From NCBI GenBank assembly GCA_002840245.1, contig PHAA01000001.1:62001-126000 (forward strand): a stretch of 64,000 bases of DNA. Reading direction: 5' to 3'. Below are positions 12,858 through 16,690 of the stretch, piece by piece; the first letter of the stretch is position 1; each line of letters starts with the position of its first letter. The position numbers and the translations under genes were made by a program. The notes below the pieces were generated by a model that worked only from the letters and a program-made list of their open reading frames with translations, searched no databases and had not been told where the DNA came from. The stretch is from Firmicutes bacterium HGW-Firmicutes-15. Its GTDB lineage: Bacteria; Bacillota; Syntrophomonadia; Syntrophomonadales; Syntrophomonadaceae.

Positions 12858-12887
12858 TTGACAAAAACCCCGGGGCTGTGCTATACT
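12858..12887 (+). promoter_or_regulatory. Promoter of the tRNA-Ser/Arg-tadA cluster
   Basis: TTGACA at 12858-12863 and TATACT at 12882-12887, 18 bases apart, end 38 bases before the first tRNA. This is a strong consensus match and probably drives the whole tRNA-tadA cluster. Confidence 0.75.
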
Positions 12888-12925
12888 TGCTTTTGCATTG
12901 GGGAAATCCGTGCGTTCTTCTGCGC

Positions 12926-13015
12926 GGAGGGGTGTCCGAGCGGTTGAAGGAGGCGGTCTTGAAAACCGTTGAACCTTTGCGGGTTCCGTGGGTTCGAATC
13001 CCACCTCCTCCGCCA
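12926..13015 (+). tRNA. tRNA-Ser(UGA)
   Basis: A type II tRNA with a long variable arm. The acceptor arm GGAGGGG pairs with CTCCTCC, and CCA is encoded. The anticodon loop CTTGAAA carries TGA at 12960-12962. It lies 89 bases downstream of serS. Confidence 0.97.
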
Positions 13016-13064
13016 TAGTAATTATTCAAGTTTAAGCAAGTAGAAATGCAAAAGATCACATCGT

Positions 13065-13158
13065 GGAGAGATGGCCGAGTTGGCTGAAGGCGCTCGCCTG
13101 CTAAGCGAGTATACGGCTAATACCTGTATCGAGGGTTCGAATCCCTCTCTCTCCGCCA
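13065..13158 (+). tRNA. tRNA-Ser(GCU)
   Basis: A type II tRNA with acceptor GGAGAGA/TCTCTCC and encoded CCA. The anticodon stem CTCGC/GCGAG encloses loop CTGCTAA, giving anticodon GCT, which reads AGC and AGT. Confidence 0.97.
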
Positions 13159-13195
13159 TATTTTTATCTGAGGTATTTCTAATACTTAGTATCAA

Positions 13196-13272
13196 GCGCC
13201 CGTAGCTCAGCTGGATAGAGTGACAGGCTACGAACCTGGAGGTCGGGGGTTCGAATCCCTCCGGGCGCGCCA
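13196..13272 (+). tRNA. tRNA-Arg(ACG)
   Basis: A 77-base tRNA with acceptor GCGCCCG/CGGGCGC, encoded CCA and anticodon loop CTACGAA. The anticodon ACG is the bacterial substrate of TadA (A34 to inosine), whose gene starts 160 bases downstream. Confidence 0.97.
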
Positions 13273-13334
13273 CTTATCAAAATTGAATATCAATTATTAA
13301 TGAAGGGAAAACATTTGTTTTCCCATTATATTAT

Positions 13335-13411
13335 GCGCCCGTAGCTCAGGTGGATAGAGCAACGGTTTCCTAAACCGTGTGCCAGGGGTTCGAGTCCCTT
13401 CGGGCGCACCA
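13335..13411 (+). tRNA. tRNA-Arg(CCU)
   Basis: A 77-base tRNA with acceptor GCGCCCG/CGGGCGC and encoded CCA. The anticodon loop TTCCTAA gives CCT, which reads AGG. It ends 20 bases before tadA. Confidence 0.97.
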
Positions 13412-13431
13412 TTTGGCGGTGATTCCCAGTC

Positions 13432-13929
13432 ATGAGGGATGAGTTATATATGCGACTTGCCCTGCAACTGGCCCAAGAGGCTTACGCTGAAGGCGAAATA
13501 CCCATAGGTGCGGTAGCAGTATACGAGGATGAGATAATTGCATCAGCGCGTAATGAAAAAGAGCTGCGCAAGGATGCTACAGCCCATGCGGAGATATTAG
13601 CGATGCAGAGAGCAGCCCAGCACCTTAATCGGTGGCGTCTTGATGGCGTAACCTTGTATTGTACCTTAGAACCATGCCCGATGTGCGCTGGAGCCATGAT
13701 AAATACCCGGCTAAAAAAGCTGGTTTATGGGTGCAGGGACGATAAAGCAGGTTCAGCCGGGTCAGTGATAGACCTGGTAAGGTACCCGGGGCTAAATCAT
13801 CAGGTAGAGGTCATGGAAGGTGTTTTAAGAGAAGAATGTGCAAGCCTGTTAACTTCATTTTTTGCTGATATTAGGAGAGATGGCCGAGTTGGTCGAAGGC
13901 GCTCGACTCGAAATCGAGTAGGCGGCTAA
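13432..13929 (+). CDS. tadA: tRNA-specific adenosine deaminase TadA, 3' end inside a tRNA gene
   Basis: TadA deaminates A34 of tRNA-Arg(ACG) to inosine. The zinc and catalytic motifs are HAEI (with proton-shuttling Glu) and PCPMCAGAM. The open frame has 165 residues; the last 18 or so (basic tail DGRVGRRRSTRNRVGG) and the stop codon are encoded by the first 56 bases of the tRNA-Ser(CGA) gene at 13874-13967. The catalytic core is complete before this tail. It lies between tRNA genes and is probably co-transcribed with them. The serS-tRNA-tadA order is known from other Firmicutes, but the usual ffs and dnaX do not follow. Confidence 0.95.
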   Translation: MRDELYMRLALQLAQEAYAEGEIPIGAVAVYEDEIIASARNEKELRKDATAHAEILAMQRAAQHLNRWRLDGVTLYCTLEPCPMCAGAMINTRLKKLVYGCRDDKAGSAGSVIDLVRYPGLNHQVEVMEGVLREECASLLTSFFADIRRDGRVGRRRSTRNRVGG

Positions 13930-13967
13930 TCCCCGCCTCTAGGGTTCGAATCCCTATCTCTCCGCCA
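13874..13967 (+). tRNA. tRNA-Ser(CGA)
   Basis: A type II tRNA with a perfect acceptor GGAGAGA/TCTCTCC and encoded CCA. The anticodon loop CTCGAAA gives CGA. Its first 56 bases double as the end of tadA on the same strand. Confidence 0.97.
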
Positions 13968-14008
13968 CTTTAATAGCAATGAAGGAGAAATCACCAGAGA
14001 TTAGATGC

Positions 14009-14083: not shown

Positions 14084-14180
<97 letters not shown>

Positions 14181-14191
14181 AACGAATTACC

Positions 14192-14227
14192 AAGGGGTTT
14201 CAGACTTAGAGCTGAAACCCCTTTTTC
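14192..14227 (+). terminator. Terminator of the tRNA cluster
   Basis: Arms 14192-14203 and 14212-14223 pair perfectly over 12 bases, with a T run at the end. A diverged copy follows the tRNA fragment at 16650-16685. Confidence 0.9.
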
Positions 14228-14434
14228 ATATTTTTTACAAATGGAGTAGCCAAAACAGGTAGGAATAGTCGGTGATAGAAGTAAATACGGCACAATCATT
14301 GAGAAATTATTCTGGATCAACATATGATTGATTTAATATCCTTACACCAAAAGCAACTTACTAAAGAGACGGTAAGACCTATACAAAAAGATAAGAGCCT
14401 GCTTTCATTTAATATCCATCCTTTCTTTTCCCAA

Positions 14435-16044: not shown

Positions 16045-16526
16045 ATAATCGTCTCCTTTTAGCAAATCCATTGGGCCGCAATGCGCATATATTGGCTGCT
16101 TTTAATGATAGTATAGAAGCGATAGAATTTAAATAAACTTATTACAGGAACACTTATATATTTTACTGATTTGTGGGAAAAACTATATTTTTTGACTTGA
16201 TTTTCTTTGCGAGTAGCAACAACAGGGATATTGTATTGTCAATGTCATAATATTAATATTCTTGATAATAGGTGGATTTTCTTTAACATACCTAAATTAT
16301 TTTGCTGGGATTCCGAGAAAATCAGCGATATTGTTACTATAATGGCATTAGCATTGTGTCGCCCCGCCTCCACTATTTGAGGAGCCATCGAGTAGCTGAA
16401 ATAGGCGACTCCATCCAAGAATAGATAAGAGTCACTGCATAACTCTGGAACAGTGGATAGTCACAAATCAAGAATAGATGAGTACAGCCGCCAATTCCGG
16501 GAAATAGTAGCGATGAGCTTTACACA

Positions 16527-16690
16527 ATTGGAAATCAAGTAGACGGCTAATCACTGTCTCGAGGGTTCGAATCCCTCCCTCTCCGCAACATCAAAATATG
16601 AACGAAGTGATTATCGGGAGTACCCGAAGGGTACCATTACCGAATTACCAAGGGGCTTCAGACTTTGAGCTGAACCCCCTTTTTGATATT
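16527..16690 (+). repeat. Broken copy of the tRNA-Ser(GGA) 3' part and its terminator
   Basis: Bases 16527-16586 match 14117-14176 (anticodon arm to the acceptor end of tRNA-Ser(GGA)) with one difference. The match then breaks for 47 bases (16587-16633) and resumes with the CCA end and a diverged copy of the terminator (16634-16690 against 14176-14230). The 5' part of the tRNA is missing, so it cannot form a tRNA. This is either a tRNA-associated attachment-site duplication or an old segmental duplication enclosing the AraC/DUF4386 islet. Confidence 0.85.

Follow-up and report, generated by a model that had tools for sequence, protein, structure and literature searches.

Overlaps between selB and selC, the gene for tRNA-Sec, are known in Alphaproteobacteria, Dyella/Luteibacter and Nitrospirae (PMC8124441). 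The tRNA-Sec genes concerned are nested in or overlap selB, with some of the stop codons located inside the tRNA (nt 46-48), and Mukai (2021; PMC8124441) proposed, without experiment, that processing of the tRNA produces a nonstop message, such that protein and tRNA are alternative products. A comparable arrangement is found here for tadA, the gene for tRNA adenosine(34) deaminase, and tRNA-Ser(CGA). As in selB/selC, a tRNA that lies downstream in the same orientation supplies the sequence for a C-terminal extension of the ORF, and the overlap is conserved yet lost in sister species; as in Dyella/Luteibacter selB, the stop codon lies inside the tRNA. The systems differ in that selB/selC overlaps mostly consist of a whole tRNA nested in the ORF, while the tadA overlap is partial, and in that tRNA-Sec is a ligand of the protein concerned, while tadA overlaps an ordinary elongator tRNA. 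Based on family function (NF008113), TadA acts on tRNA-Arg(ACG) and not on the tRNA that its gene overlaps. Also unlike selB/selC, tadA lies inside an operon of tRNA genes, downstream of the gene for its substrate tRNA-Arg(ACG), and its overlaps recur with various lengths and frames.

Bacteria carry tRNA-mRNA polycistronic operons in which a message between tRNAs is freed by tRNA processing enzymes. In the usual case the ORF stops outside the tRNA and a complete message is left after processing, whereas the tadA stop is inside. Animal mitochondria are similar to tadA in that, as outlined in PMC8124441 for Armadillidium cox1 and tRNA-Lys, bases are shared on one precursor and processing one product spoils the other; in these organelles the genomes are compact, RNase P is of other types and polyadenylation occurs, in contrast to the 3.5 Mb bacterial genome that carries tadA. 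No earlier report of a tadA/tRNA overlap was found in a literature search with thin coverage of subscription journals. What is new with respect to selB/selC is the ordinary elongator tRNA, the tRNA operon and the comparative sequence evidence for a putatively selected stop codon.

The window (the whole 64,000 nt stretch of DNA analyzed) contains six tRNA genes identified with ARAGORN, all within one cluster that forms a conserved operon on the + strand. A promoter (TTGACA-N18-TATACT with TG before the -10 hexamer, bp 12858-12887, scoring 11/12 in a consensus scan) is followed by tRNA-Ser(UGA) (bp 12926-13015), tRNA-Ser(GCU) (bp 13065-13158), tRNA-Arg(ACG) (bp 13196-13272), tRNA-Arg(CCU) (bp 13335-13411), tadA (bp 13432-13929), tRNA-Ser(CGA) (bp 13874-13967), tRNA-Ser(GGA) (bp 14084-14178) and, at the operon end, a terminator-like hairpin with 12 pairs and a T run (bp 14192-14223). 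A short way upstream is serS. No second ACG copy of the TadA substrate, tRNA-Arg(ACG), was found in the genome; the other tRNA-Arg genes found have the anticodons CCU, UCU and CCG. Following tRNA-Arg(CCU), which encodes its CCA and ends 20 nt before tadA, there is a ribosome-binding-site-like sequence, GGCGGTGATT (bp 13415-13424). In most close relatives tadA likewise starts 15-25 nt past tRNA-Arg(CCU), with a ribosome-binding-site-like motif (GGNGGTGA) between them. The promoter hexamers are identical, with a spacing of 17 or 18, in every relative that yielded a value for that stretch, and the relatives' promoters before tRNA-Ser(UGA) score 11/12 against a background near 7.5. In two members of one family, the tRNA-Arg before tadA has the anticodon TCG instead of ACG, and tadA is still there.

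The original prediction, that the last 56 bases of tadA are also the first 56 bases of tRNA-Ser(CGA), proved exact: the ARAGORN and ORF coordinates place the shared segment at bp 13874-13929, and the ORF therefore ends within a tRNA on the same strand. The TAA stop codon (UAA in the message, bp 13927-13929) falls within the variable arm of this tRNA, for which a whole-genome search found one copy. In the tadA frame, a codon begun at nt -1 is completed by nt 1-2 of the tRNA. RNase P would be expected to cut at the 5' end of the tRNA (bp 13873/13874), leaving a tadA remnant that has no stop and breaks off after the first base of codon 148. When tRNA-Ser(CGA) was folded freely and alone, the minimum-energy structure was not a cloverleaf; as unmodified tRNAs often lack a cloverleaf as their minimum-energy fold, this result was given no weight as evidence.

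The 165 aa product matches the NCBIfam equivalog NF008113 with 189.8 bits (cut-off 150), and its identity as TadA agrees with Pfam and with TadA homologues in the PDB. The HAE and PCxxC zinc and active-site motifs are retained, and their alignment columns are invariant. AlphaFold gives a confident fold (mean pLDDT 92.5), with the exception of the Arg-rich tail encoded by the tRNA, for which the mean pLDDT is 54 for residues 151-160 and 34 for residues 161-165 and which is predicted to be disordered.

Comparison of tadA C-termini among relatives, as the original prediction had suggested, identified 27 genomes from 17 genera of Syntrophomonadales that share the 56 nt overlap and its frame. All but one of them belong to the window's own family, and one, G001, has an overlap of 59 nt. 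The relatives that carry names are Syntrophomonas and other Syntrophomonadaceae. The TadA C-termini in this class resemble ..DLRRDGRVGRRRSTRNRVGG. This breadth rules out chance and a hidden frameshift, and with it the possibility, raised at the outset, that a sequencing error (or a misassembly) masks an earlier tadA stop. In G001, tadA has an in-frame TAG within its conserved body and keeps the overlap nonetheless; this may reflect a pseudogene, an assembly error or recoding. In 22 further genomes, from the order and from other Bacillota families, tadA ends on a UGA in the D arm (tRNA nt 12-14), giving a 14 nt overlap and a C-terminus of ..RRDG or similar. Overlaps of 10, 23, 47 and 48 nt were also found; overlapping genomes number 57. 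Because several lengths and all three frames are represented, the arrangement must have originated repeatedly. In a phylum-wide sample biased toward TadAs similar to the query, 24 of 102 genomes show an overlap and 44 more have the two genes within 60 nt. The overlap is conserved across genera and lost in sister species: in three congeneric genomes (G025, G027 and G029), tadA stops 8-42 nt short of the tRNA, indicating that the overlap is dispensable. In Thermodesulfovibrionia/Nitrospirota (matches from Nitrospirota and Clostridia), tRNA-Ser(CGA) is found within tens of bases after tadA, so the gene pair is either old or has spread.

As a matched control for selection on the shared bases, we used the three sister tRNA-Ser genes of the same genomes, which no ORF overlaps. 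Among 19 genomes, the mean pairwise difference at nt 1-56 is 0.044 for tRNA-Ser(CGA), compared to 0.102 for tRNA-Ser(GGA), 0.078 for tRNA-Ser(UGA) and 0.083 for tRNA-Ser(GCU); from nt 57 to the end of tRNA-Ser(CGA) it is 0.093. Gapped columns are absent from nt 1-56 of tRNA-Ser(CGA), while the sister tRNAs have two to three. By parsimony the contrast is weaker, with 26 changes at nt 1-56 to 36 in the rest of tRNA-Ser(CGA) against 69:58 and 39:29 in sister tRNAs, and the reduction is modest. At nt 54-56 the triplet reads TAA in 23 of 26 genomes, TGA in one, TAG in one and GAA followed by TAA in one. Based on 5'-anchored alignment positions, the tree requires three changes at the three stop sites of tRNA-Ser(CGA) and 31 at the six flanking sites (nt 51-53 and 57-59). 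At the equal offset the ratios are 17:32 in tRNA-Ser(GGA) (Fisher p 0.009) and 13:23 in tRNA-Ser(GCU) (Fisher p 0.010), and only 24 of 47 sister tRNAs have a stop triplet there. In addition, an in-frame stop is absent from 22 of 76 non-overlapping tRNA-Ser genes and from none of the 54 that overlap in the tadA frame, counts that are uncorrected for kinship; an independent-pairs test, which corrects for phylogeny, always gave the predicted direction for an in-tRNA stop against overlap, with very few pairs. Together, these comparisons suggest that the stop within tRNA-Ser(CGA) is selected, and the tadA frame is most likely translated through the tRNA to its stop. Retention of the stop shows the frame to be important, which is distinct from showing that the overlap regulates anything.

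We consider it probable, taking the evidence as a whole, that tadA is part of a polycistronic tRNA precursor in which it shares its 3' end with tRNA-Ser(CGA), and that TadA can be made only until that tRNA is cut out. Ribosomes would translate tadA on the precursor ahead of processing, and those crossing the first 56 nt of the tRNA (14 nt in relatives) would keep its 5' half open. Since translation of nt 1-56 would open the acceptor and D arms, full-length TadA would be made before the cut or never. Once tRNA-Ser(CGA) folds, RNase P would cut at bp 13873/13874; provided that both genes are on one transcript, 5' maturation would thus free the tRNA, strip off the stop codon and leave a nonstop tadA message. 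One RNA probably cannot yield both a finished tRNA-Ser(CGA) and an intact tadA message, and mutual exclusion of TadA and this tRNA, molecule by molecule, can be soundly inferred from the gene arrangement. On the nonstop message, normal release of TadA would be blocked and the ribosomes passed to tmRNA/SmpB rescue. Exonucleases acting from the 3' end would trim the cut message back, in doing so maturing the 3' end of tRNA-Arg(CCU), much as 3' exonucleases mature CCA-encoded tRNAs in B. subtilis (PMC10100781). As tRNA-Arg(CCU) encodes CCA, the tadA message probably forms the trailer of this tRNA, which would be a second ground for a short message life. TadA output, which we infer to be limited by the RNase P cut, would be held low and coupled to how much of its substrate, tRNA-Arg(ACG), is transcribed. 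With respect to the rescue system, a tmRNA gene begins right after smpB in the genome and is truncated at a contig end, so the family search returned no full tmRNA for this genome; tmRNA scores above the cut-off in 14 of 20 relatives.

The exclusion of one product by the other depends on a single transcript, and it would disappear if tRNA-Ser(CGA) had a promoter of its own inside tadA. Scores above background were obtained before this tRNA in two relatives (10/12 and 9/12), and the cluster is fragmented in some members of the order, but in nearly all relatives the best sites there score 5-8/12, which is background level. In the window, the + strand from bp 12888 to 14008 has no site scoring 9/12 or higher, and the best score before tRNA-Ser(CGA) is 7 against a background of 7.5. 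Nor does anything promoter-like precede tadA in the window scan, a check that the original prediction had called for, and a start about 20 nt after tRNA-Arg(CCU) leaves scant space for a separate promoter. Consensus scans such as these may overlook promoters. Given the conserved promoter before the first tRNA, the background scores before tRNA-Ser(CGA) and the terminator after tRNA-Ser(GGA), placement of tadA and tRNA-Ser(CGA) on a single transcript is well supported by comparison, short of proof, and separate transcripts are very unlikely. The overlap might instead be maintained on account of the protein, with the basic tail selected for a purpose such as gripping tRNA. The tail is Arg-rich and kept across 27 genomes, and many other TadAs bear Lys/Arg-rich C-terminal tails of their own. 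Its conservation, however, would already be expected from the tRNA; its two blocks have the low pLDDT values given above, and the 22 genomes that terminate after RRDG or similar lack the long tail encoded by the tRNA. No signal of protein-type selection was detected in the tail, as changes in the overlap fall 2:12:12 at codon positions 1, 2 and 3, with equal numbers at positions 2 and 3. The presence of the tail hinges on single tRNA bases (C or U at nt 12 and at nt 21 of the D-loop). These bases vary in non-overlapping genomes too, and the tail is probably for the most part a by-product, set by the position of the next in-frame stop within the tRNA. Thus, of the predicted basic tail encoded by tRNA sequence, the sequence itself stands, while its disorder, its absence from the 14 nt class and the basic tails of other TadAs leave little sign of a tail-specific function. 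We regard selection for the tail as improbable.

A stronger competitor is that small deletions have repeatedly shifted the tadA terminus into the neighboring tRNA, and the overlap has no regulatory role. The tRNA sequence would offer a stop in most frames, and precursors would be present in excess, so that enough TadA could be made before processing. Several observations are consistent with this: tadA and tRNA-Ser are closely packed in general (a gap of 0-9 nt in 21 of 128 cases and of 10-59 nt in 27 of 128), the overlaps of 10, 14, 23, 47, 48 and 56 nt are spread across all three frames, the overlap is often lost in sister species, and the base that decides between a long and a short overlap (C or U at tRNA nt 12) takes both states in genomes without an overlap too. 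Frequent gain and loss, with at least 15 changes on the weakly resolved TadA tree, is what would be expected of a nearly neutral trait and counts against a regulatory reading. The selected stop does not contradict neutral crowding either, since any translated overlap predicts that the stop is retained. On the other hand, each cut would still render the tadA message nonstop, whatever the origin of the overlap, and long retention in 17 genera suggests that the overlap is at least harmless. In our judgment neutral crowding is possible but doubtful, and we continue to favor the reading in which TadA is made only until tRNA-Ser(CGA) is cut.

A more speculative reading is that the overlap senses TadA activity. 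CGA is decoded by inosine-34 tRNA-Arg(ICG), a TadA product. CGA accounts for four of the 18 codons in the tail (bp 13870-13929), compared to 0.8 percent of the codons in the window's ORFs, and one of the four is the anticodon triplet of tRNA-Ser(CGA) itself, read in frame. When TadA is scarce, ribosomes might stall at CGA within the tRNA, covering the RNase P site and sparing the message; when TadA is ample, they would clear, allowing the tRNA to fold and the message to be cut. The CGA codons are also imposed by the tRNA sequence and the 14 nt class is without them, and we consider such a sensor very unlikely.

Most bacteria cannot live without TadA, a tRNA-editing enzyme. If the favored reading is true, this enzyme is made solely from molecules that have not yet been processed into tRNA; RNase P would be an off switch built into the system, and tmRNA would do the clean-up. 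The 57 overlapping genomes, together with natural variants (long, short or no overlap) in near relatives, make the idea of "tRNA or protein" directly testable and extend the selB/selC proposal to an ordinary tRNA. For annotation, it is possible that pipelines forbidding overlap between a CDS and a tRNA trim or omit tadA.

Approximately 2.4 kb downstream (bp 16521-16690) there is a second copy of the segment (bp 14111-14232) that comprises the operon terminator and the 3' half of tRNA-Ser(GGA), with the terminator part matching over 57 nt at 91 percent. The two copies flank genes for a DUF4386 protein and an AraC-type regulator on the - strand, and the pattern resembles an insertion behind the tRNA that has since decayed.
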